From: Sphaerolaimus hirsutus
Lineage: Eukaryota > Nematoda > Chromadorea > Monhysterida > Sphaerolaimidae
Reading direction: 5' to 3'
Length of the DNA stretch: 64,000 nt
Assembly (NCBI GenBank): GCA_964036195.1
Contig: OZ038457.1
Coordinates: forward strand, 14,287,147-14,351,146
Both the position numbers and the translations under genes were made by a program. Below are positions 1 through 58,900 of the stretch, piece by piece (position 1 is the first letter of the stretch; each line of letters begins with the position of its first letter). The notes beneath the pieces were generated by a model, which had not been told where the DNA came from, ran no database searches, and saw nothing but the letters and a program-made list of their open reading frames with translations.

Positions 1-2271
1 GCGTGTTTTTGAAGTGACTAGCAAATCGGTGGTGGTTGGCAGCGGGCTGACACTCAACGAAATGGAGGAAAAGCTGACTGATACAGTCGAAACTTTATCA
101 GGTTTTTGTTTCGTTATTAGGCTGAATATGATTCTCTGGGAGTATTTCGAGTGGGGGAGGGGGCTATTCGAGGAAATATGGTACATGTTCGAAATACGAG
201 GTTTTCAAAGCAGGAAATAATTTTAAATCTTAATATAAATACAACGCACACACTGAAAATTTTAGTTCCGTCTCTGAACAGGTTTGGATCCGCTTGAAAA
301 GTTTTTGCTAGACGGTGAACAGTTCAAATTCACGCTTAACTCGACTCAATTACGTTTTCGGAATCTCATTCATCTATCTAATTTGACTCTCTCGCAGAGG
401 ACACGACGGGTGTGCTGCGCGCCGTGATAAAAATGCTGCGTGAATTTGCCGGCGAGCACGTTCGCAACGCCGCCGTCCGTTCTCTGGACTTTTTTGCCGT
501 TTTTTCATTTTTCAAATTTTGAAAAAAACACTTTGACAATACAGTGACCTTGCACATTCTCAGGGTTTCGCGGGCAACCTAGCAACCGCTAGTCCAATAT
601 CAGATTTGAATCAAATTTGGCTGGCTGCCAATGCCAGGCTCAGGTTGCTCAACTGCGCCACTGGTCGAACCAGCCAAATTGCCATCGATCAATCATTCTT
701 TACCGGCTATCGCAAGACCGCATTGGACAAGTTGGATGTCATTCTGTCCATTGAGATACCCCTTACAGACCAAGTGAGCCCCTGGTGCCAATCCCAGACC
801 AACGTACGTTTCGCCACTTTGCAGGGCATTTTGCGTGACTTTTTACACCTTGCTTGACTTTTGACATTTTACAGGGTATGGGACTGCCCCCTGGACTATA
901 TTTTGTAAATTTTACTATTTTTTCAGATAGTTCGATAAATTTTAGATAGCTGGCCAATTTGGGGGGGGGGGGGTTCAGGGGATAGTAGCCAAAAAAATTT
1001 GCCTCCCGAATAGATAGCTGAGCGGCCTCCCAGACAGATAAATGTATAGCTGACTGATTTAGGGGGTGGAAGTTCACACCCCGACCCCATCCGAGACCCC
1101 TGACTTCATGCATCGTGTTTACTGTAAATATACTTCATTTTGTGCATTAATTAATCTGATTTTAAGTTAGAAAAATGAAGGAGCGCAGCATGTAGAACAC
1201 GGAATCATGTAGTAATGACAACTTTTCCACCCACAATATGACAAAAATCAATGAAAACAGCCAACATGCACAACTTTGAAAAAATGTGAATTTAAAAAAC
1301 GGTTGAAAAAAGCTGGGCTGGTTATCCCTAACTGGTAGTTTACATGCTTTATGGCATACCATACCGCCTTTCAACCTACTACCTGACACTCGCAACTCCT
1401 ATCGCAAACACGGTGCCGCGCTCGCAGACGATCAAGGTGCAGTCGTACAAACAAGCGCAGCGGCGCGACGACGATATTGCCATAGTAAACGCGTGCTTCT
1501 GGCTCGAGATCGACCCCGGTTCTGCTGCAGTCACAAATGTGCGCCTTGCATTTGGCGGCGTCGCTGAAACCACTAAATTGGCCAGCCAGACTGCCGAGCT
1601 TATGATGAACAAACAAAGGTGTGTAGGTTGTTGTCTGTTGTCAACTTAGTTCACGCTTTGAGATGATAATTACCGTATTTCCTCAAATTACCCCCGGCGG
1701 GTTTATTGTTTCAGAGTGGAAATTTTTAGGGGGGTTGAACAAGGGGGGTATTTCGAGGAAATACGGTAGTTTATCACATCAGAACACTGGAAAACAATAT
1801 GGATGTTTTGTCGCGATACATTGCTTTCGCTAGAATAATTGGAAACTTAATTTATCACATCACTATTCATCTGATTATGGTGGAATTCATGCAAAGCATA
1901 CTGCGTGGTCAGTAATCATGTTGTATTTAGAATCCTTATTAATTTGTGTGCAAATAAACTAATTGATATCTTATCGATGATGACTTTTGGTTTCAATTTT
2001 AAACAAAAAACACTCCATATTACTTTTTATCACTTTCAGGAAGTGGGATGAATCGCTGTTGGAAGATACGCTCAAATCCCTGGCCAGTGAAATGGGAATA
2101 CCGTTCGGCAGCCCGGGCGGAATGGAGAAATATCGTAAATCACTGATACTGTCGTTTTTCTTTAAGTTCTTTTGGGAAGTGGCTGCAGCGCTGGGCTCCA
2201 AAAATGTGTCGACCCTGCCATCGCTCGTTGATAGTGAATATGAACCATTGAAGTCTACTCAGCTTTTCCGG
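1..2271 (+). CDS. XDH: XDH exons 1-5 in window: FAD-binding domain
   Basis: Five exons cover the flavin domain and the start of the linker. The first is cut by the window edge and reads [20 protein letters not shown]. Splicing 474 to 564 joins VRNAA to [16 protein letters not shown], the same spacing as VKSVASLGGN..SPISDLN in mammalian XDH, which fixes this junction. Exon 4 holds [11 protein letters not shown] and exon 5 holds [20 protein letters not shown], both standard family landmarks. The exon 3 donor at 774 is followed within 11 bases by an introner copy (785-890). Reading frame is intact throughout. Confidence 0.92.
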
Positions 2272-14799: not shown

Positions 14800-14999
14800 G
14801 AGGCAGTCCCAGATCCTGTAAAGTGTAAAGTAAAAGTCATATAGAATGTCAATCAAAACAAAAAAGAAAACATTTTATTGAACTTCGCATGACAATTTAC
14901 ACATTACTTTACATTTATCATGACAATTGACACTTTGCATGACATTTTACATGACATATTTGCCACTTTACTACACTTTACAGGGTCTGAGATTGGCAC
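14800..14999 (-). mobile_element. Introner-family copy, reverse orientation, downstream of XDH
   Basis: GAGGCAGTCCCAGATCC at the left and ATTGGCAC at the right, i.e. the element read on the minus strand. Flanks are CTG and CAA, so the target duplication is imperfect. It lies between XDH and the unknown gene and in this orientation cannot serve as an intron for either. Confidence 0.7.
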
Positions 15000-15679: not shown

Positions 15680-18071
15680 ATGCCCGAGAAGCCCGACGAC
15701 GATGGCTGGGTGGCGGTGCAGCGGCGTGGAAAGTGAGTCGCGTCGATTTCAGGGTTCGATGGTTGTGTAAACATGTTTGTGGTATGTCTATGGACATGCG
15801 GGTCCATTGTCATGTAAACCCGGTGTCGTGTATTTTGGGGGGTATTGGCATGGCACAGGGGTTAGCGGCTGCTGGTTTACATGAAGAGTAGAGTACATGC
15901 TAAGGCAGTAGGGCATGCCCACTCTCATTGTTATTGACACTGTTGAAAATTGAAAAACCAAGTCAGTTGTTATGCATTTCAGTTTTTCAATTTTTCTATG
16001 AGTAATGCCATCAAAACAGTGACAGAAACAATGCGAGTGGGCACGTACTGTGCTCCTAGCTATGTACACTACCTTTTTACCGTTTCTATTTCATTTGGTT
16101 CCGCAACTACATCACAATTAGCAACTTGTACCAATGTGATACTTCGAGTCGCACCATTACCCTGCATAGATACTATATGACCGTTGTGTGTGAAAAAATG
16201 AACCACTACGTACACTCGATACCTAATAGTCATGTATAGAACGAGAAAAGGAGAAATAAATACACCTAAATGATCACATGTTAATCACTGGGATGTTTGT
16301 GTAGACGTCACCATCCACTGCGAGGAGAGTTTTTGTGGGACTGCCGGCGCAGAAAGACAAGTGTCGGTGTATTTATTGTCATTTTTTATCCAATCAAAAA
16401 AGATTTTATATTTCCGTATCACCCAAACACAATTTTATGCTTTTTTTATAATGTCCATTCGGATGAGACCATTTGGTGCACCCACTTGTTGTGCTGCGCC
16501 ATGCAGCACCTATCCATGGTGTAGTTGATGTGCTCATGGATTCTCGCTCGGTGTGACTGGCATCTGTCACCACTTAATAACCATGATATTTTTTCTTTAG
16601 TACTCACCGTTGGATCAACGGCTTGGCATGTGCATCCAGAAGTGTCCATCAAAATATACATACGTTTCTTCGATCGAATATGCTTGCATGCTCCCAGCAT
16701 GTGTTCTAGTGTCAGATTCGGTCGGTCTTTGTGTGTCCCACAAAAGTTACATTCCAGCATTATGTTTTTCGGGTATTGCACGCAATTATAGCGTGCCTGT
16801 AACCACCTTGGATACTTACCAGAGACTGTATTTAGTCGCAATGTATCAGCATCATGATCCAAAAGTCTGAACCGTTGACTATTATGACCCTTTGTTCTAG
16901 TTAGGCAGTTCCGTTTTAAATTTTCATTGCTATGTTTTTTCAGCATGCCTTTACTCAAGGCGGACGGATGTGTGCCTGGTCGAATTTCATCCATAAACAT
17001 TTTTGCTCTCTCTGGTATGGTGGCTCCCATGCAAAATCGCGTGTTTGAGCGTCGTGTCGGGTTTTGTGATAAATATTCATATGCATGCTTCAACAAGTCA
17101 CTTTTATCTTGTAAATTTAGATACCTGTTATAGTTTATTGTATGCCGTTTTAAGCGGTGCAAGGGAAGCACCCCGCCTAGGTCCAACAGCAATGCGTCAG
17201 TGCAGGTGTTGACCGGGAGTTGACTAGCTGCTTTCACCGTTTGCAAGTAAATAGCATCAATACCCTCTGTAGTCATTTTTCTAGCCCCTACAACATCAAG
17301 ACCGTATAATACTGCACTCTCTACATACGATTTCCAAACATTGTTGGCGTTCCTTCAATGTGAACCCGCTGCCGCTAACCCACGTGCCAGGGCAATATCC
17401 CCTAAAATACATGACTGCCGGGTCTACATGACGAGTGGCACAGTTTTTAAATATTTTTTTTATTTTAGGAGTTATGAATTAGATCTTGACCGGTACCGAT
17501 TCACGCGGTTTTATGTTATTGTTTTTACGCGTTTATAGGCGCCGGCGCGTAGCCCCGCAGCAGCAGACATCGTCCAGACAGCAGACAGCAGCAGGTCCAG
17601 CGCAGCAGAGCCTGGTGGCACACTCGTCGGCGATGCACCGAGCTGCAGGGAAGCCGATATCACCACTACCAGAGCAGCGCAAAACGACGCCGGAACGGAC
17701 CAGCGTCGCGACGGCCGGCCCAGGTGCCAGTCACAGACCCTGTAAAATGTCAAATGTCATGCAAAGTGTCAAAGGTCACGCAAAATACCCCGGCATGGCA
17801 AACGTTTGCTATTTTACCGCGCATTTTACGTGACTTTTGATACATTGCATGACATTTTACACGGTCTGGGACTGCCCCCAGAGTTCACGCGGCCGCCGCG
17901 CCCAGTGTCACCAGTCGCGCCGCCGCGCGGTGTCCTATCCACCGATCAGTCGTCGAGAACGTTGCACGAACACGCATCCCCCCTCAAACAGGATGCAGTG
18001 CCGTTGCCAGATGACACTGGACAGGACCGGCTGCAAGAGCCACCAGTTCCTGCAATGAACTACGCGTTGGT
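15680..18071 (+). CDS. Unknown gene, N-terminal exons 1-3
   Basis: Exon 1 begins MPEKPDDDGWVAVQRRGK and ends at a strong GTGAGT donor (15733). The DGWxxVxRRGK pattern is common at the start of disordered regions and does not identify a family. Exon 2 (17539-17723) is RRRVAPQQQTSSRQQ... and exon 3 (17882-18071) is EFTRPPRPVSPVAPPRG.... Exons 2 and 3 are separated only by one introner copy, and removing it keeps the frame (P-E-F). The exon 3 donor is unsure: TTGGT|GTTCAA gives the right phase for the next exon but is weak. Confidence 0.75.
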
Positions 18072-21000
18072 GTTCAAACAGGCACCCTATTTCCTCGAAT
18101 AACTCCCCCCTTGAATTACTCCACCCTCAAAGACTTCTGACGAAATAATAACTCCCCTGGGGCCTTATTTGAGGATATATGGTAGGTAAATATGTAATCA
18201 TTGTCTAATAAAGTCTAATCTTTGTCTTAACTTTTACCAGTTCTGCCGCGTCGGCGGCGCTCATCCGGCCGGCCAACTTGTCACCGTGGGACCAGCAAAT
18301 TGCGCAGCGGCGTGCCGTTCCCGAAGTATTCAACCAAGACGAACGTGCCACTCCTGCAGAGTTCGCCGATCCGGCACGGCCAACCGAGCGGCAAGAGCCC
18401 ACTGAGTACGCGCCTCAATTCCGTCGATCTCTCGATGTTGTGGGCCGGCGAGGTGGGATAAATAGCCGGGCTTTTGGGCCCACACACACTAGTTGACATC
18501 AAACTAGTTGACATCATTTATTTGTGTGTTATTCAGTTGACATTCAGTTAACATTTATTTGCGTTGTCAACTACTGTGTGTGGGCCCGTTATCCCTTACA
18601 CAACGAATAAATACGAACGTGCAATGCAGAATCGATGGGCTGTCTGTCCACGACCACGAGCGCTCACTATTCGCCGCCGAGTCCGCGCTACGCGGCGTCG
18701 CACAGCGGCGGCCTGCAGCCGCACTCGACCGCCAGCGGCACGGGCGCCAACTCGACCAGCTACCGCGACAGGCAGCCCATGCTGGCGCTCACGCCGCTGC
18801 CCGCCCACAAGAACGCGCCCGTGATCTACTGCGCCGAGGCGGTCGTCATCCGCATAAAGGCGCGTCTGGTTTTCGATCGTTTTTTTGTGGTATTTGTGTA
18901 TTTCCTATATACCGTATTTTCCCGAATTAATTTTTTCGTTGGACTTTTTATAGGGGGGAGGGGACTATTCGAGGGGGGATTATTTAAGGGGAGGAATTAT
19001 TATTTCATCAAAATTTTGAAAGCACAGTTGTATCAACTCATTCCACAAAATATGCTTTATTAACACAATGGCATGCCATTTTTGTTCAAATCGTACAGAA
19101 CAAATAGATAATATTTATGCTAAAGTGGGGAACTATTCAAGGGGGTGTTTTTTTCTCACTCGCCTTACAGGGGGAATTTTTCAAAAGAAGGAACCATAAA
19201 GGGGGATTTTTCATGCAAATACGGTAGGTACAGTATGTATTTACATATTACAGGAACATTTCGGTCATTGCTGGGCACCGCAGTACGGCCGCATATTTTT
19301 CACCGAAAACAACCTGGTGGCCAGCGAGCGAACGTATCGCAACCTGGACCAAGTGCCTCCCGGTGCGGTGTGAATGCTCCACTTAGGGACACTTCCGCAA
19401 GTTGCCAAGTGACAATTGATGCGGTAGGTAAAGTTCTCGGTGGTATGTCGAGCTATATGTAAAGATCCTGTAATAAGTAAAACATTTTCATTTACTACTT
19501 TCATTTACTTCATTTACTCGCAAATTTATTTGTCACTTGATTTACAAAATTACACGATAATTACAAAATTGTCCCACCACATATCGTATTTACTGACACT
19601 TCTCAATTTGCGGGATCCTCACAACAATAACGTGCACTTTCAACTAGCATCTGCATTTCGCGCCCAGGAACATCGGCGCGCGTGTGGGCAACCAACAATG
19701 TAAGCGAATATCAACACGACGAAGGGTCATCTTTCCCCGACATCAAATGGAAGGCGCTTAAAGTTGAGATCGAGATGCACAGGTCCGATCTAAAATTGCG
19801 AAGTAAAAAAACCGTGTTTCGCCAGGCTAAACACATAAAGAAGTAGATACGATGCAAATCACTGCTTCAACTGACCCAGAGATCAAATTGTTCTACCTTT
19901 TTCTCACATTTTTATCGTCGGACATTTGGTGCCAGTACCTAGACCTGTAAAGTGGCATTAGGGTTCAAACGGGATTGACTTTTCGGGATCGGGATCGGGA
20001 TTGGTTTTTTGAGATTTCGGGATCGGGATCGGGATCGGGATTGGCCGGGATTGGGGTCACGGGATCGGGATCGGGAATGGCATTTTTTCGGGATCGGGAT
20101 TGGGGTGTAGGGATAGAGATTTTGGCCAATGTTCTGGCATCCACAGGTGTTCATAAAGGTCTCAAAACACTGTTGGATGCCAGAAACGTGGTATAAAATG
20201 GACGCTGGGGGTTTTTCGTTTACATTTTTGCATGCAAAAACCTCATTTTTTCACTTTATATAATTTTACTGATTTTTCCGGGATCGGGATCCCGGACTTG
20301 GGAGTTTCTCGGGATCGGGATTTGAAAATTTTCGGGATCGGGATCGGGACTGCAAAATCCCGGAATTTCACAGGATCCGGGATCGGGATCGGGATCCCGT
20401 TTGAACCCTAAGTGGCATGTAAAATATCATACAAATTTGTCAATTGTCATGCAAACTATAAAAATTTCAGTAAAATCGATTCATTTTTGTTTTGCTTCAC
20501 ATGTTACATGACATTTGACACTGAACTTGACACTTGAGGGCTCGGGACTAACCCCCTGTAGTGCATGTCTCCTTCACTCAAAAACGTGCCCTCGTGCAGA
20601 AGATCGCCGCTGGTGCGCGAGGGATGCGGCTGCGTGACCCGAGCCCATGGCGGCTTTGGTTTCTTGGAGACGGCGGGCGATGAGCTGACCCTGTTTGTGC
20701 CCGGCTTCGCTGCCACGAACAACATGCGCGGGCCCCGGGCCGGCTACCAAATGCCCGACTTGGAAGCCACGCTGACTCACTTTCTCGCCATACCGAACCC
20801 TGTAAGGTCTTCTATCGTCTGCAAAACTTTACATAAATCTATCATTTAAAAAAATTTATCACCATTAACATACATTTATCTAACGTATTTGTTCGAAGTA
20901 CACCCTTGAATAAACCCCATCGAAATGCCCTCCGCCCGAAATGATGTAACCCCTGATCGCTCACATCCGGCCATGAGCAATTTTTTACAAAAAAATTCCC

Positions 21001-24000: not shown

Positions 24001-25368
24001 TGATCTATGAGTTTTTATAATTTATTATCAGTGTGATCAAAGAGTGACAAATACGCTAATCCTCTGTACCGTGCTAATCTCCCCAAAAATACATGACCGG
24101 TGGGTCTACATGACTAGTGGGTTTACATGACTACATACACAGGGTCGTTTATTTTTCGTATTTAGGTGTACAGATGTATTTATTAATTACACATCTTGAA
24201 GTTTTTGTTTTTCGCGCAGTTTGGGCTCAGTGCCAGGTCGGAAGTACTGTGACTGTTCGACTTTGCAGCGGCCTGCACGCTGTGGTTGCCAATGATTTGC
24301 GCCTTGACGGTGAATTTGAAAAGCTTCATTTTTCGAGTGTGTGCGTATGTATCTTAACAAACACGTATGTACCAATGTGCGTGCAGATGCTAACAATGAG
24401 TGGCCAGCTTTTGTGTGTAAAGCAGTGCTTGGGCAACTCAAGTGCGCAGCTGGTGTCAGTCCCAGACCCTGTAAAATGCCCTGTAAAGTGTCAAATGTCA
24501 TATAAAGTCAAATGTCATCGGTTGCCATTTTGCAGGGCATTTACATGACTTTTCACGCTTTGCATGACATTTGACATTTTACATGGCATTTTACTGGGTC
24601 TGGGACTGCCCCCTGGTGGTCTGGGAGCTGTGCTGTTCCCAATCGACCAGCAGGAGCAGCCCCAGCAAAACGCGCCCAGGCCAGATGAAATGCATGCACT
24701 CGGACAGGTCTACGTGCCCGCCTGGTGCAACGTTGATGCCCCTGATCAAGAGCTGGTTTCGCTGCATGGCAACGTAGTGCACGCGACCACTGTTCGAGTT
24801 AGTGATAAGGTAAGCAGCAAAAATATTTGTGATGCTTTAGTATCCCACCGTTTGAACGATCGTTGGTGTATTTTACGTGTTTTTAGCATTTTTGCCTGGC
24901 GCTGCACCAATCCGAGTACGACTGCGGTGACCAGGTGCCAGTCCTAAACCCTTTAACATGCCCAGTAAAATGTCAAAGGTCATGAAAGATGCCCTGCAAA
25001 ATGGCAACGGTTGCCATTTTTCAGGGCATTTTACATGACTTTTGACACTTTGCATGACATTTTACAGGGCCTGGGACTGTCCCCAGTGCAATGGTGGGCA
25101 TGGGCACCTCGCTGGGCACCCACCAGAGACTGAGCCGGACTGCGCTGTTGACGGCGCTGATGTCGGCGCTGTTCAGATTGGTGATAACGGTGCGCAGGTG
25201 CCTGACATTGTGAGATGTTTTCTCGATGGTGATCAACCGCAGGGGGTGAGTCGTTGCATCGTGTTGTGGCACTTACCTGTAAAATACCTAACTTTCATTT
25301 TGCTGGGCCCTTGGCCTGGCCAATATCGACGTTGGTTCGGTTGCTTTCACTCTGAACGGATCGTTTGA
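15680..25368 (+). CDS. Uncharacterised multi-exon gene (about 17 exons) with transposon-derived introns
   Basis: I do not recognise this protein. Exons with matching phases: 15680-15732, 17539-17723, 17882-18071 (end uncertain), 18241-18452, 18630-18868, 19254-19362, 19668-19782, about 20600-20801, 21154-21235, 21578-21703, 23131-23289, 23532-23672, 24220-24336, 24387-24452, 24628-24809, 24887-24934, 25087-25245 (or open to the stop at 25368). The first third is disordered and Pro/Ser/Gln-rich. The rest is beta-rich, with segments such as QYGRIFF and GGFGFLE next to LFVP that loosely recall cold-shock RNP motifs; that resemblance is weak. Three introns contain the introner element at or near their borders. 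Confidence 0.75.
15796..17440. mobile_element. CATGTARACCC-type inverted-repeat element with RT fragment inside
   Basis: Inverted terminal regions of about 85 bp (left: CATGTAAACCCGGTGTCGTG... to TTAGCGGC; right: the reverse complement ending near 17440). It fills most of the first intron of the unknown gene. A truncated retrotransposon ORF lies between the arms, so this is probably a nested insertion. Confidence 0.65.
16446..17352 (-). pseudogene. Non-LTR retrotransposon, 3' ORF2 fragment
   Basis: Minus-strand reading frame open from about 17352 to the stop at 16446; the first ATG is at 17276. It begins NNVWKSYVESAVLYGLDVV, typical of the C-terminal half of non-LTR retrotransposon reverse transcriptases. 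It ends with a zinc cluster (CNFCGTHKDRPNLTLEHMLGAC, pattern CX2C...HX4C) characteristic of ORF2 C-termini. The RT catalytic core is missing, so this is a 5'-truncated dead copy. The clade cannot be set from this piece. Confidence 0.75.
17724..17878 (+). mobile_element. Introner copy forming a complete intron (phase 1)
   Basis: Starts GTGCCAGTCACAGACC, ends GGTCTGGGACTGCCCC, and the interior is one long inverted repeat of words like TGTCAAATGTCATG. It is flanked by the 3-bp target duplication CAG (17721-17723 and 17879-17881). The intron is 17724-17881: donor CAG|GTGCCA, acceptor CTGCCCCCAG|A. Exons 2 and 3 of the unknown gene join in frame across it. Confidence 0.88.
18081..18182. mobile_element. 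CCGTATTT-type element, diverged, abutting exon 3 of the unknown gene
   Basis: CACCCTATTTCCTCGAATAA ... TTATTTGAGGATATATGG. The left end starts about 10 bases after the presumed exon 3 donor. Confidence 0.65.
18241..21235 (+). CDS. Unknown gene, exons 4-9
   Basis: Exon 4 (18241-18452) carries LSPWDQQIAQRRAVPEVF. Exon 5 (18630-18868) carries SAHYSPPSPRY and APVIYCAEAVVIRIKARL. Exon 6 (19254-19362) continues EHFGHCWAPQYGRIFFTENN and must end at CCCG|GTGCGG to join exon 7 in phase (PPG-TSARVWATNN). Exon 7 ends at 19782 or 19802. Exon 8 (about 20600-20801) carries GCVTRAHGGFGFLETAG. Exon 9 (21154-21235) carries KKKFENLFVIALHPVD and a CGNC pair. Exon 4 is also open in a second frame, but only the SPWDQQ frame matches the phase of exon 5. 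Confidence 0.7.
18476..18587. repeat. Palindromic repeat with GTTGACA arms
   Basis: GGGCCCACACACACTAGTTG at the left and CAACTACTGTGTGTGGGCCC at the right. It lies between exons 4 and 5 of the unknown gene. Confidence 0.7.
18912..19224. mobile_element. CCGTATTT-type element, diverged
   Basis: CCGTATTTTCCCGAATTAA ... CATGCAAATACGG, flanked by TA. It lies between exons 5 and 6 of the unknown gene. Confidence 0.65.
19929..20555 (+). mobile_element. Introner-family copy split by a hAT-like element
   Basis: GTGCCAGTACC at the left and GGGACTAACCC at the right. The interior is interrupted by a 452-bp insertion (19959-20410) with its own 8-bp duplication; without it the element is about 167 bp. 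It lies in the intron between exons 7 and 8 of the unknown gene. Confidence 0.75.
19959..20410. mobile_element. hAT-like element made of GGGATC repeats
   Basis: Terminal repeats TAGGGTTCAAACGGGAT / ATCCCGTTTGAACCCTA, flanked by the perfect 8-bp duplication AGTGGCAT (19951-19958, 20411-20418). The interior is largely degenerate tandem CGGGAT units in one orientation. It is nested in an introner copy. Confidence 0.88.
20883..21100. mobile_element. CCGTATTT-type element, diverged
   Basis: ACGTATTTGTTCGAAG at the left, TTCGAGGAAATACGG at the right; it ends 53 bases before the acceptor of exon 9 of the unknown gene. Confidence 0.65.
21578..24452 (+). CDS. Unknown gene, exons 10-14
   Basis: All junctions are phase 1: 21578-21703 (GMHWLCPSGRDDYEQ), 23131-23289 (DEEFTSVLQFGDYPYDVM), 23532-23672 (YDGVILLRLPEQKILVICC), 24220-24336 (VGSTVTVRLCSGLHAVVA), 24387-24452 (NEWPAFVCKAVLGQLKCAA). 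The alternating hydrophobic pattern suggests beta-sheet modules. A 916-bp mariner-like element fills most of the intron after exon 10, and a CATGTAGACCC-type element lies in the intron after exon 12. Confidence 0.75.
21754..22669. mobile_element. Mariner-like nonautonomous element, copy 1 (916 bp)
   Basis: Ends CATGGTCGGGCTGAAAAG / CTTTTCAGCCCGACCATG between TA dinucleotides, with terminal inverted repeats of roughly 270 bp. No transposase ORF. It lies in the intron after exon 10 of the unknown gene. Confidence 0.88.
23762..24128. mobile_element. CATGTAGACCC-type inverted-repeat element
   Basis: Repeated CATGTAGACCC words at the left and their complements (GGGTCTACATGAC) at the right, with the inner arms CATGTATTTT and AAAATACATG. 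Same family as the arms at 15796-17440. Noncoding. Confidence 0.7.
24453..24612 (+). mobile_element. Introner copy at a CTG target, making most of an intron
   Basis: Starts GTGTCAGTCCC, ends GGGACTGCCCC, flanked by CTG (24450-24452 and 24613-24615). This target gives no AG. The next AG lies 12 bases past the duplicate (CTGGGAG|CT at 24627), and using it joins exon 14 to exon 15 in the correct phase. That would skip four codons of the presumed ancestral exon. Confidence 0.75.
24628..25368 (+). CDS. Unknown gene, C-terminal exons 15-17
   Basis: Exon 15 (24628-24809) carries GQVYVPAWCNVDAPDQELVS and ends at GTAAGC. Exon 16 (24887-24934) encodes only HFCLALHQSEYDCGDQ. Exon 17 begins at 25087 (CNGGHGHLAGHPPE...). 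Exons 16 and 17 are separated exactly by one introner copy in phase 0. After GTGAGT at 25246 the same frame runs on to a stop at 25366-25368. Another frame nearby (25309 on) encodes VGSVAFTLNGSFEYCHLTFP and a stop, resembling an upstream segment of this protein, but no AG acceptor precedes it, so the true C-terminus is unresolved. Confidence 0.65.
24935..25083 (+). mobile_element. Introner copy forming a complete intron (phase 0)
   Basis: Starts GTGCCAGTCC, ends GGGACTGTCCC, with CAG on both sides (24932-24934 and 25084-25086). The intron 24935-25086 has GT from the element and AG from the right-hand CAG. The frame on both sides (YDCGDQ-CNGGHG) is continuous. Family and mechanism as for the copy at 17724. 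Confidence 0.88.
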
Positions 25369-46315: not shown

Positions 46316-46955
46316 ATGATCCCCATTCACCTATTGGGGCTGGATTCCAAAATGACGGGCACGGAGGCCCGTCGCAGGTCTGGCTCGGGCAGCGCGCACA
46401 GCTCGCCCGCCAGGCCGCCCAACGGCACCGCGCCCATGGTCAGCACCGGCTCCAGCGGCAATTTGGTGTGTCCCCGTGTCTGCGTAGTTCGGATCGACTC
46501 GCGCAACTTTGTCGCATGATTCGGGCCCTTGGGGGCGGTACCAGGCCGTGTCAAATGTCAAATGCCATGCAAAGTGTAAAAAGTCATGTAAAATGCCCCG
46601 CAAAATGGCAACCGAGTTGCCATTTCGCAGGACATTTTACATGATTTTTGACACTTTGCATGACATTTGACATTTTACACGGTCTGGCATTGGCACTCGG
46701 TGTATCTGTCCGTGCACATGGATGTACACTTTTTGGTGATTATTTCAGCGCCGGCCGGGTAGAGCCGCGGGCAGCGTGCAGCACAGCGGCAGCGCCCATT
46801 CACTCAAGGCGGTTGAATCGACGCCGTCGGCTAGGAAGCACACTGCACCTGGAAGCGTCGTGGTTGAAGTCAACTGCGTCGACAACCATGGCCGGCCGAG
46901 TGCACCCAGCAACAAATTTGTGCCTAACGGGGCACACAATCAACATGGATCCCAG
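46316..46955 (+). CDS. Syn: Synapsin first two candidate exons
   Basis: Exon 1 opens at ATG 46316 (MIPIHLLGLDSK) or ATG 46352 (MTGTEARRRSGSGSAHSSP) and ends at GTGTGT (46466). Exon 2 (46749-46955) is Ser/His-rich and ends HNQHGSQ at GTAGTT. They read as a disordered N-terminus. Exon 2 ends in phase 0, while the next recognised exon opens in another phase, so a small exon or an alternative promoter between 46956 and 52180 is missing. Assignment to synapsin rests on position and strand. Confidence 0.65.
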
Positions 46956-52900: not shown

Positions 52901-55900
52901 CCTCTGGGATAGATACCAGATAACTGTGCGATGTGGGGTGGTTACCCCCTCCGCTTACCCCCCCCCCCAATTCGAGACCCCTGCTACAATCACAGGCCGG
53001 CCCCGAAATGACCGGCGTGCCGAGCAGCCAGTCGCAGTCTTCGGCGGTGCAACCACCGCCGGCCGGCTACGCTGCCGCGGCGCACCTGCAGCAGCACAGC
53101 GACGGCTCCGTGATTGCGGTGGGCAACGACGTGGCCGCGAGGGCCGCTCAGCCGCAGCAGTCGATGAGCCACGGTCAGCAACAGTCAGAGCAGGGGCAGC
53201 AGCAACAGCAGTCGCTCACGAGCAAGTTCAGCTTGGCCAGTTTGACCAACCGCGTCAGCTCGGCCATGCATGTCAGGTGCAGTTTTAGTTTATCTCTATT
53301 TTATTCAAGATTCATCTTATGTGTCTAATGAGTTTTGAGATGGATACCAAACATATGTTAGAGCATGTACCGGGTGGGCCAATCTCGTTGGGTTGGCAAT
53401 ATTTTTTTTCTTCAACAAAACCCCGATTTTTCTAAAAAATTGCAGCATCAGCAATAATTGATTGACTAGCCAAGATTTTGTGCAAAAATAGCCGACAAGT
53501 GCACAGACTAGAGTAAAGTAGAGGTGCACCTAAAAATTCTAACCTAGGTACATTTTCTTTTACATTTTCCGTGGTATTTTGATATTAGATAGAAAGGTAT
53601 TAAGATAGTAAGTATTTTTTGAGTATGTTTTAAAACAATTTCTCAACATTTCACAACGTTATTCATGTCTGCGTTGATGTTAACTCTGGGTAGTATTTGA
53701 TCAATTTATAGTTCCAAAATTAATGAATAAAAATTTAAAGAATTTGAAATCAAATTCTGAAAGGAGAATACTCGCCGCGTATACGTATTTTGGTCAATAT
53801 ATGATAGAAGCAACAAGTCTATTTGCACCTTGCCTTGTTTACGTGCCAAGTGCTGTATTTAAGTATACCATACATCCCCCCTTTCAGCGCACCCACGTCG
53901 CCACAGAAGACGGCCGTCGGCCAGTCCACCGAGGAGGGCGACGTGGGCATGGTGCAGCACGTGTCCGGCTTCACCAGGAACCTGTTCAACGCGGCCACTG
54001 GCCAGCGCATCGGCGAGAAGACCAAAGTTATATTGGTCATTGAGAGGGACTTCGTGGATTGGTGAGTGTTGTCTTTTGCACTTTGGCGCTGCATACCGTA
54101 TTTCCTCGAAATACCCTCCTTGAATTAACCCCCCTTCGAAATACCCCCAGGTGTTTCCGAGCTGAGGAAAAATAAACCCCCCTCGAAATACCCCCATCTT
54201 GACTGATGTACACCATGTATACAATGTACGTGATGTATTTATTGGGATTAAATCTCATCGCAGCTATACAGAGAGTAGTTTGTATAGCCATCTACGTTTG
54301 TATGTCCTAATGCGTCCCGTTTGGTGACGTTTATTACCAGTTTTGGGTACCTATATAAAAGCCCATTCTTTACGATGATATTTACGAAAATTTCTGGCGC
54401 AAAAATAACCCCCCTTGGTTAAGCCCCCCCCCCCTCGAAATACCCCCCTCAAAATTTCCACTCTGAAAAAATAAACCCCCTGGGGGTATTTCGAGGAAAT
54501 ACGGTACATTAATTTACTACTTGTAAACTATGTATGTCGGTAAACCTTTAGTAAACTCATAATTTAGCTTTGAGTGACATTTGAGGTTATTGAATTAATT
54601 TCTCGTCAACTAACTCACAGAGTTGTTAAAATACCGGTATTTTTGGAAAGTGTAAGTGTAAGCGTAAATACACTTTCCAAATTTTGAGTATGGATACTCA
54701 AAGTGTAAGGTATTTTAAAAATACCTAGGAAAGTGTAAAAAAGTGTAAGTGTAAAAAAAATTTTGAGAAAGAGCTCACACTGTTGAGCATTAGAAGACAC
54801 CACTGTTTTCACCTTTAGATCAATTTATTTGTCATATGCATGCATTATTTAACATTTTACTGCCTTGTATGGAACATTTCATACTGTAACAAATACTGTA
54901 CCTAGTGGTATAAAGTTCCCTAATGATGGCACTTCTTCCGTGTTGATATTTTACTGATTAAGCAACGCGATACACACTGTTTAAATGCAAGAATGGACAA
55001 GCAGCAAATGTCAATGCAAAAGCCAGTTGACTTTGTGTCCAGCTGGTGCCAATCCCAAGCCCTGTAAAGTGTAAAGTAAAGTGTCAAATGTAAAGTCAAA
55101 TGCAAAGTAAAGTGTCAATTGTCATGCAAAGTTCAGTAATAAAATCTTTTCTTTTTTGTTTTGATTGACACTTGACTTTGCATTTGACTTTACATTTGAC
55201 ACTTTACTTTACACTTTACAGGGCTTGGGACTGCCCCCAGGTAAATTTCCATCTATCTTGTCCTTTTTACAAAAGTATGATGAAACTGTAGAATACCATG
55301 AGTACTGATGAAAGGTTAGAGATCAAACGCTAGTTTGTAAACAGGGGACACGCCAGGTCCGCCACCTAGCTTCTGAGTCGGTGCCGGTAGCCATATCTCC
55401 AGCTGTAGTGGGGGGATTTATTCGAAGTTTTGAGGTTATATACTAGATATCCCCCACTACTTTATGCGGGCTGGGGGAGGTCGGCGACCCACCTGAGTGT
55501 GGACCGCCGTATACATGAATATTTTTCGTTGTATCGAGAGTCTAAGAAACGTCTAATGTAATTTTTATTTTTGCTGTCCAGTGCCAAACCTGGACAGCGA
55601 ATTCTCAAAAATATCATTTTATTTTCCAGCAGTTCACTCTCAGGGGGGTTGCCAGGGGGTTCAATTTCCCGCGAAAAGTAGTGGGGGGTGTCGTGTACAC
55701 CCCCTCAAAATTTCGATCAATTCCCCCCAACAGTTTCAGTTTGGCAGCCCGTTAAATAGAAACAACATGGGGTGGCGGACCTGGCGTGGACAGCGATTTT
55801 TTCAAAAAAAATATTCATGTTTACGGCGGCCCACACTCAGGTGGGTCGCCGACCTCCCCCAGCTCGCATAAAGTAGTGGGGGATGTCTAGTATATAACCT

Positions 55901-58900
55901 CAAAACTTCGAATAAATCCCCCCCCACTACAGCTGGAGATATGGCCACCAGCACCGACTCAAAAGCTGGGTGGCGGACCTGGCGTATCCCCTGTTTACAT
56001 TTGCACTATTTTCTACATTCAATGGATAACTGCATGTGTGCACTGTGCAGTTATTTTTTGTACATGACCCTATTTTATGCTTTCTCAAAAGCATAAAACT
56101 GGGCCATCTGAAAGAAAAAAATACACTTTCTGTACCCGGGTATTTTGCGCTGGAAAGTGTAAAAAAAGTGTATGGGTATTTTATGAAAGTTTAAGTGTAA
56201 ATATAAATACCCATTTACCAGGTATTTCGGGTAAGTGAAAATACACTTTCGCAACTCTGCTAACTCACTCCAGTAAACTCAAATTCATTCAAGGCTGATT
56301 TATAAGTTAACTAAATTTTCAAAGTGTGCAGCGACTTTCTGTGTGCGCTGTGAGAGCACTGACGACTTCTATGTAAATCCAATGTATACATTGTGCACAG
56401 GAGCAAATACGGCCGGGGCCGCAAGGTGCACAACGGGGAGTTCGACGTGCGCATCGAGCAGGCGGACTTCTCCGAGCTGTCGCTGCACTGCGCGCACGGC
56501 CGCTGTGCGGTCGAGATTGCCCCCAAAGCAGGCGCAGCCAGGAATGCTCGGTCGGCATATGATTCTAAGCCCGGTCAAATGACAAGACATATATTACCGT
56601 ATTACCTCGAATTATCCCCCCCCTTGAATTAACCCCCCCCTCGAATAAACCCCCCCTCAAAATGGGCTGGGGAAATAATAAACCCCCCCCTCGAAATACC
56701 CCCCCCCCTTCGGAATGATGTACGTCATGTACATAATAAATACGTCATGTATGCAATGTATATGATGTATATTACTGTTTATTTGTACTGCAGCTACACA
56801 TGGACATGTTTGTGTAGCTAATCTACTAAATATATCTTGTTTGGACACACTTATTACCTGTTTTGGGCATGCAAATGCCTACTATTTATTACGATACTTA
56901 CGAAAATTTCTGACGAAATAATAAGACCCCCCCTCGAATAAACCCCCCCCTCGAATTAACCCCCCCTCAAATTTTGCTGGCGAAATAATAAACCCCCATG
57001 GGGGTATTTCGAGGTAATACGGTATACTTTTTAATCAAGTTGTACATGGTCGGGCTGAAAAGTCCCCGGGCAGTGCTAGCCATTCGCGCTAGGGGTAAGC
57101 TACGGTCATAAAATTTTGACAGGTTAAGATATCAGGTATTTTGAGTTACCACCCAAAATTTCACCCCTCTAGCTCCACCCACTGCGGAACTGTGGGGGTT
57201 ACAATTTCGGTCATTTTGTACTGATGTACAAATGGTGTTCTAGCTCAATGCTGCTTCAAGTTGTGATCATGAAACTTTGGCTAGTGTAAGCCACCAGTGT
57301 TGGTAATGTGCTGATAATATTCAACACTTTTATCAACATCATTGCTATTAAGGTAAAATTAATATGCAGATCAGGGTGATGTGCAAGAAACGTAGGAAAC
57401 TGTGATGGATGTTTTTGGTGATCATCTGAGATCATGTTGTAATGCAGTGATTTTAATGTTGTTTTGAAATGTGCAATAAGTGAGTTATGTGTTTAAATTT
57501 TCCCTGTTTCATTACTAATCTGTAGTGGACACATTACCTGTGTTCAACAGCAGTGTGCATGCCAAATGCATCCTGTATTAACCACTTTTTGAGAATGAGA
57601 GACGCAGAATGATGAATTTGGTAGTGAGAGTAGTGACAGTAATGACAATATGAACTAGGCTTATGATATCATAGCTAATGTTGGTTAGTTTTGGCACATT
57701 GCCAACACTGGTGGCTTACACTAGCCAGAGTTTCATGATCACAACTTAAAGCAGCATTGAGCTAGAGCACCATTTGTACATCAGTACAAAATGACCGAAT
57801 TTGTAACCCCCACAGTTCCGCAGTGGGTTGAGCTAGAGGGGTGAGATTTTGGGTGTTAACTCAAAACACCTGGTATCTTAACCTGTCACCATTTTATGAC
57901 CGTAGCTTACCCCTAGCGCGAATGGCGAGCACTGCCCGGGGACTTTTAAGCCGGACCATGTACATAGGCAGTCATGACAAAGTCCACATCGAGTTTCGTT
58001 AAATGTACACCGGGGGCAGTCCCAAACTGAAAGACACTGTAAAGTGTAAAAGACCCTCTAATATGACGGGTGTCATGCAAAAAACCCTGTAAAATCTCAT
58101 GTGTTATGTAAAAGACAATGTTAAGTGTCATATGTCATGTAAAGTACCCTGTGAAGTGTCATGTGTATCCACATCTCATTTTATTGTATCCAAATCTAAT
58201 GTTGTTGTATCAAAATCTTACTTATTGACATAAGATTTGGATACAAACCATAAGATGTGGAACGAAAAACATAACATTTGGATAAGATACAATAAGATTT
58301 GAATACACATGACATTTTACAGGGTTTTTTACAGTTTACAGGGTCTGGGACTGCCCCCAGTTGTTTATAGTCGACCCTCACCTTGTCACTCGACAACGTG
58401 TAAAATGAGTGGAGAATCAGACGAATGCCTACGCGGTACACTTTGCTCGCAGCAGTTTCTCGCCCGACCTGGTGCTGGTGCGGCAGGCGGTCAAGTCGGA
58501 GACGTGGAACTACTCGCGCACGATCATCGGCCTGCACTACGCCGGCGTGGCCGGCGTGAACGCGCTCCCCGCCGTGCACGCGTTCTCCGACAAACCTTGG
58601 GTGGTGAGTGCGCTGCGCTGCCCTTTTTTGAAACAAGTCCAGGGGCCAATTCCGCAAAAGGCGAAGTGAAAAGTGAAGTGAAAGGCGAAATGTAATTGAA
58701 AGTGAAAATAAATATATATAAATAAAACGTAGAGGATGAATTCTGACTTAGGAAGCATTGTTTCTGATGACGTGAATGATGACTTGTGGGAAACGTGACG
58801 ATTTTTCGCTTGCGTTGGAACTTTGCAATTGAAAATGTTTTCTGTTCTGAAAAATGTCTTTCACTACACTTTTCACTTCGCTTTTCACTTTTATTTTCAC

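Follow-up and report, generated by a model that had tools for sequence, protein, structure and literature searches.

We describe a family of palindromic miniature transposons that very likely works as an introner, i.e., an element whose copies make up whole introns, and that appears to be of the NuwaI type (PIF/Harbinger-like, CWG-duplicating). On the reading to which we lean somewhat, this single animal family would account for hundreds of introns and, owing to the ambiguous middle base of its 3-bp CWG duplicate, for two kinds of them: copies with CAG would be GT-AG introns and copies with CTG constitutive GT-TG introns, the spliceosome accepting TG as a normal 3' end, perhaps aided by an RNA hairpin that hides inner sites. 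About half of the intronic copies seem to end in a non-textbook splice signal. The copy noticed originally lies in the window (the whole 64-kb stretch of DNA analysed) and is of the CAG type; it is probably a spliced intron too, with less certainty than the copies found in known genes (see below).

Structure and genomic distribution of the element

The original prediction of a palindromic 155-bp element between CAG duplicates agreed with the letters of the window in coordinates and inverted repeats: the element occupies positions 17724-17878, with CAG at 17721-17723 and 17879-17881, and two inverted-repeat pairs cover it, one of 39 nt and one of 30 nt, both 87% complementary. The predicted borders were also read as such, CAG followed by GTGCCA on the left and CTGCCCC followed by CAG on the right. 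The two ends of the element are thus unlike, one starting with GT (T-end) and the other ending in CTGCCCC (G-end). The T-end 16-mer, allowing up to three mismatches, had 14 occurrences in the window where 0.56 would be expected, and none of 100 shuffles reached 14. Nine two-ended copies were visible in the window, and the closest other genomic copies by score were 83-84% identical to the reported element. The features are as follows:

17539-17723, plus strand: putative upstream exon, preceded by an acceptor-like TTTATAG; weak codon scores and no Pfam match
17721-17723, plus strand: left CAG target-site duplicate, by sequence the final three exon bases if the element is spliced
17724-17878, plus strand: 155-bp palindromic miniature transposon, NuwaI-like, putative intron body (sequence, inverted repeats, fold)
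17724-17739, plus strand: T-end (GTGCCAGTCACAGACC), source of the putative GT donor
17863-17878, minus strand: G-end (GGGGCAGTCCCAGACC read on the minus strand), with a GGG start as in NuwaI; its plus strand gives the CTGCCCC before the putative acceptor
17879-17881, plus strand: right CAG duplicate, by sequence the last three bases of the putative intron and its 3' splice site
17882-18102, plus strand: putative downstream exon, open until the stop at 18100-18102 in the predicted frame
785-890, plus strand: family copy with CTG duplicates, non-coding score
6974-7158, plus strand: family copy with CTG duplicates
14800-14999, minus strand: family copy with the G-end at left
24453-24612, plus strand: family copy with CTG duplicates
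24935-25083, plus strand: family copy with CAG duplicates, possibly exonic (codon score 7.4, under the cut-off of 9)
46532-46696, minus strand: family copy with eroded duplicates
55046-55237, plus strand: family copy, left CTG and right CAG
58013-58357, strand unassigned: family copy with two G-type ends and unequal duplicates

A second, apparently unrelated miniature element lies 600 bp downstream of the reported copy (18476-18587), with 23-bp ends (GGGCCCACACACACTAGTTGACA) that are 96% complementary. The minus strand of 16446-17354 holds an open frame of 302 aa, which we take to resemble the end of a non-LTR retrotransposon polymerase. Rfam, at the gathering threshold, gave no match in the window.

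A search of the 348-Mb genome for the element's ends, as the original prediction had proposed, was run and returned 2,605 exact T-ends (GTGCCARTCCCAGACC) preceded by CWG, 1,377 of them after CAG and 1,228 after CTG. The exact G-end (GGGGCAGTCCCAGACC) was found 732 times after CAG and 989 times after CTG, and the reversed-pattern control of these exact-end searches gave 0 every time. In the examined loci and the window there were 115 complete copies, of which 107 had one end of each type; CWG stood on both sides of 83 of these 107, with equal duplicates in 66. Among the 82 copies with enough flank, the left/right duplicates were CTG/CTG in 33, CAG/CAG in 33, CTG/CAG in nine and CAG/CTG in seven. 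The 16 unequal pairs among the 82 differed at the W position only (e.g., window 55046-55237, L088 and L077:460). The target was C-CWG-G, with frequencies of 62% for the outer C and 66% for the outer G. A consensus of 178 bp was derived from 72 copies of 140-215 bp, whose median divergence from it was 8.4%. In the G-end, G was present in at least 90% of copies at each of positions 1-4; the T-end started with GTG, the T-ends having been chosen in part by the search pattern.

Several genes held two copies at different exon positions, i.e., those of OSCP1 (L047 and L072; C1:3.592 Mb), chondroitin synthase (L077; C1:5.421 Mb) and a kinase (L018); the dual-specificity phosphatase gene of L002 probably does as well.

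Reading frames, orientation and predicted splicing of the copies

Flanks were joined at one duplicate and the resulting peptides were searched by Pfam (curated cut-off) and PDB. For Pfam, 28 sense-oriented copies were picked by eye, not at random, and a match above the cut-off crossed the junction in nine: four CAG/CAG copies (L018:1497, L026, L040 and L047), four CTG/CTG copies (L018:868, L072, L077:1504 and L079) and one CTG/CAG copy (L077:460). In the remaining 19 joins the match was absent, below the cut-off or off the junction. Oscp1 was crossed at L047 (CAG, 3.3e-19) and at L072 (CTG, 4.4e-17); the two copies are separated by about 0.8 kb and fall in adjoining parts of the profile. The other crossed profiles were CHGN at both L077 copies (CTG/CTG, 2.2e-11; CTG/CAG, 2.4e-15), kinase at both L018 copies (CAG, 7e-10; CTG, 5.6e-7), ECH at L026 (CAG, 6.5e-10), LRR at L040 (CAG, 6.1e-9) and CBS at L079 (CTG, 7.4e-6); at L040 and L079 the Pfam stretch extends merely 3-4 residues beyond the junction on one side. 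PDB alignments were ungapped at the junction for L079 with AMPK gamma (E 1.3e-39), L026 with dienoyl-CoA isomerase (5.5e-12) and L077 with chondroitin sulfate synthase 2 (4.7e-7). None of ten antisense joins gave a Pfam match above the cut-off and one gave a match below it (E 0.019), a weak control because several of the ten are the reverse strand of copies called sense.

Empty sites were sought for two insertions, that in AMPK gamma (C1:5.773 Mb) and the reported copy. A second AMPK-gamma gene, on contig C2, lacks the insert at the corresponding position (query 2-70, 83% identity, without a stop and with codons aligned on both sides), its codon at the site being TTG and not CTG; judged by this alignment, it is a paralogous empty site for one copy of the family.

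The orientation of the copies was examined with a codon log-odds score derived from 540 codons of eight joins taken as coding, all with the T-end at left: L026, L040, L072, L077 and L079, with junction-crossing Pfam matches, and L002, L010 and L028, chosen by eye. Of the 115 complete copies, 81 were scored after the removal of eight that did not have one end of each type, 24 that lacked CWG on one or both sides and two whose flanks were short; many of the 81 came through similarity to the reported copy, so they are not a random sample. Thirty-three of the 81 were coding-like (score of at least 9), and the T-end was on the coding 5' side in 31 and the G-end in two (binomial p 1.3e-7); in five of the 33 calls the margin over the opposite strand was below 3.5 points. 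The ratio was 23 to 2 without the training loci, and 37:4, 24:2 and 21:1 at score cuts of 5, 12 and 15, respectively. It follows that a GT end facing 5' is what matters, which would correspond to the requirement for a splice donor; no such orientation would be needed by a symmetric mechanism or one acting on DNA.

The 60 loci taken by pattern were the first places listed, all on contig C1 between 0.6 and 7.4 Mb; by hand tally they held 18 sense coding-like copies at the pattern site and two antisense ones. If this region is typical, extrapolation would make about 30% of the 2,605 sites, some 800 copies, introns. The central copy of L091 looked antisense with a codon score of just 4.7; its G-end has become GCAGCA, so that the opposite strand would carry a GC-AG intron, and its joined flanks had no Pfam match.

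These data suggest the following mechanism. As the sequences show, the element inserts at CCWGG-like sites, duplicating CWG, and removal of the element plus one duplicate restores conserved reading frames exactly. For donor and acceptor, the spliceosome would use the terminal GT and the right-hand CWG, respectively (GT-AG with CAG, GT-TG with CTG), while a long RNA hairpin would hide the inner GTAAAA and TTTTACAG sites and draw the outer ends together. The predicted RNA fold of the window copy has -70.8 kcal/mol (z -9.9 against 200 shuffles). When nine copies were folded alone, a single long hairpin resulted each time, which left four bases at the start and six or seven at the end unpaired and in which the inner GTAAAA and TTTTACAG largely paired with each other; with 40-nt flanks the hairpin persisted, and in several of the nine copies the outer ends paired with flanking RNA.

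The GTGCCA at the element's start is, we assume from the consensus, a weak donor, and the AG within TTTTACAG, about 19 nt upstream of the element end, looks stronger than the terminal acceptor. It might therefore be proposed that the stronger-looking inner GTAAAA and TTTTACAG are the true splice sites and that the outer ends remain in the mRNA, but this would add about 37 nt and shift the frame, the inner sites are largely paired in the folds, and the near-symmetric inner part predicts no orientation bias; we consider it very improbable. We give just as little credit to removal of the elements as DNA, or through a hairpin mechanism independent of splicing. The hairpin itself, the apparently equal tolerance of CAG and CTG and the likeness to Amoebophrya introners, with their hairpins and non-canonical borders (PMC7789003), would fit such a process; however, it would be indifferent to which end faces 5', and the coding-like copies are strongly oriented. 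Both inner splice sites and DNA excision were rejected on the bias of 31 to 2.

As for the reported copy itself, the original prediction held that coding is continuous without the element. The joined flanks are indeed open (...P-E-F...), but all three forward frames run through the junction without a stop (over 80, 57 and 61 aa to its left), and on the left side it is the predicted frame that scores lowest by codons. The best frame, which differs from the predicted one, scored 10.2 in sense against 8.7 in antisense. No Pfam match was found in the joined flanks, and a genome search with the joined 142-bp empty site returned only its own two halves and no paralogous empty site. With three open frames, low codon scores and an empty Pfam search, the designation of the flanks as exons 2 and 3 of a gene gained no independent support. 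No recognisable protein surrounds this copy, and its status as an intron therefore derives from the family: because the family is an introner, we regard the reported copy as a probable intron. The claim that it is a whole intron stands well for the family, through frame joins, orientation and an empty site, whereas at the reported copy itself the evidence is anatomical. The same weak codon scores, three open frames and empty Pfam search would suit a mere transposon in non-coding DNA whose splice-like borders are a family property and which is the intron of no transcript; such copies are common, since 33 of the 81 scored below 0. Against this stand the right orientation, the CAG duplicates, the long open joined frame and the slight lead of a sense frame, albeit another than the predicted one, and we hold the non-coding explanation to be possible but clearly the less probable one.

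Copies with CTG duplicates and the putative 3' splice site

CTG duplicates had been expected to be absent from exons and thus to serve as a negative control; CTG copies were present instead. The 31 sense coding-like copies comprised 14 CAG/CAG, 13 CTG/CTG, three CTG/CAG and one CAG/CTG, and the 33 copies scoring below 0 included 12 CAG/CAG and 13 CTG/CTG, so CTG was not depleted among the coding-like ones. The original introner interpretation had overlooked that copies with CTG duplicates, which lack AG at the right border, are as frequent in exons as those with CAG. Since a CTG copy removed exactly, i.e., element plus one duplicate, corresponds to a GT...TG intron, this genome would contain perhaps hundreds of such introns if excision is exact. 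The insertion was in phase 0 in 12 of the 13 exonic CTG/CTG copies, there at the boundary of the Leu codon, and in eight of the 14 CAG/CAG copies. The exact-end counts showed a stronger excess of CAG over CTG at the right border (989:732) than at the left (1,377:1,228; Fisher p 0.003, the two counts coming from different sets of copies), which would fit a slow improvement from TG to AG.

CTG copies might instead be spliced from the terminal GT to an AG in the downstream exon, with the loss of a few codons. This proposal would agree with human TG acceptors, which were found only beside a canonical AG (PMC2374985), and with the position of the first AG, which falls exactly 18 nt downstream and in frame in four of the 12 phase-0 CTG copies, these being the four homology-confirmed CTG/CTG copies. 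Nevertheless, the first AG is in frame in eight of the 12 phase-0 copies and in 30 of 44 ordinary CTG codons of the same exons; the rate equals the background and therefore gives no sign of selection for downstream-AG splicing. The use of that AG would shift the frame in four of the 12 (five of all 13) and would remove conserved residues from AMPK gamma. Furthermore, exonic copies with a right-border CTG are as diverged from the consensus (median 0.080, n=13) as those with CAG (0.084, n=16; p 0.58), in a hand list of copies scoring at least 9 and 140-215 bp long from which three longer copies were dropped and to which L026 was added (score 6.8, but with a homologue). Downstream-AG splicing is thus not favoured, and we judge it rather unlikely compared with the use of TG as the normal intron end.

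The first AG at +18 nt (L072, L077 and L079 on C1 and L018 on C13) compares with two of 44 background CTG codons; this is a post hoc observation, and downstream-AG splicing may apply to these four.

Relation to known transposons and introners

With a CWG duplicate and one end that begins with GGG, the family fits the NuwaI group of PIF/Harbinger-like transposons. NuwaI belongs to the PHIS superfamily (PIF/Harbinger, ISL2EU, Spy), is defined by CWG duplicates, has been reported only from animals, and its inverted ends "usually" start with GGG (PMC4482050). The present elements share the 3-bp CWG duplicate, the inverted ends, one GGG start and an animal host; in contrast, their other end starts with GT, and intron use is not mentioned in that account of NuwaI. 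Autonomous NuwaI copies would be expected to carry a DDE transposase and a Myb/SANT gene. A genome search with PF13359 (DDE_Tnp_4) gave at least 163 matches from 150 scored of 306 candidates. Comparison by eye of the listed DDE places on C1 with the listed exact-end places, up to 100 in each list, revealed no long element with the family's ends; the DDE place C1:27123437 has an ordinary short copy at a distance of about 3 kb, and no matching ends were found around the sole DDE copy read (L093, 4,501 bases). Because no transposase gene with these ends was found, the membership in NuwaI is drawn from the duplicate and the end sequence. The DDE_Tnp_4 family of this genome is itself very uniform and probably recent, a 300-aa frame being common to most of the listed PF13359 matches.

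Introners have been surveyed in 175 genomes, including two animal groups, of which copepods are named (PMC9860276). The present family resembles those introners, mostly non-autonomous DNA transposons that make introns with splice sites split between element and duplicate; the word "Harbinger" is absent from the main text of that survey. Its Fig. 2C presents an element that, as here, brings the 5' site and co-opts the 3' site, but there the duplicates measure 4 bp and inverted ends are absent. In the green alga Micromonas, IE-B and IE-D introners have GT-TG splice sites (25 and 6 members, respectively) and very variable lengths, from 100 to 6,494 nt for some IE-B members (PMC3879977); unlike these, the present family would yield both AG and TG through the ambiguous base of its duplicate. 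The introner elements of Amoebophrya share the inverted-repeat hairpin, direct repeats of 3-5 nt overlapping the exon borders and non-canonical sites, but their borders and families are very diverse, whereas here a single family has fixed GT and CWG (PMC7789003). The human introns with TG 3' splice sites are likewise U2-type introns ending in TG, which there occur only as alternatives beside AG and here are apparently the normal end (PMC2374985). Non-AG intron ends are used by Fritillaria, a tunicate with a divergent U2AF, where U2AF1 and U2AF2 are noted for duplication or zinc-finger changes (PMC13326754), and PIF/Harbinger remains were reported in recently gained introns in a fungal study (PMC8476143).

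Animal introners and algal GT-TG introners are therefore already known, and a NuwaI-type introner was not found described in the literature searched on introners, Harbinger, copepods, NuwaI and TG acceptors, which was mostly open-access and without preprints; a prior description is possible. The original view that a CWG-target family in an animal is undescribed is half correct, since CWG is the mark of NuwaI (PMC4482050) and introners in animals had been reported (PMC9860276). Through this family, intron birth in an animal would be linked to a well-defined group of transposons, one with a target (CCWGG) similar to the exonic side of splice sites. The family would also constitute a natural experiment, since its copies are similar in age and structure but differ consistently between A and T in the final triplet of the intron, and the need for a 3' AG thus becomes directly testable across many genes.

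Apart from the family, the assembly includes a mitochondrial contig (C762, 14754 bp) with 18% G+C in its first 10 kb and long frames on both strands. Judging from COX1 motifs, we presume that it reads by the invertebrate code (AGA = Ser, AAA = Lys, TGA = Trp), which speaks against a tunicate, and what we take to be a cytochrome b-like gene appears split over two frames.
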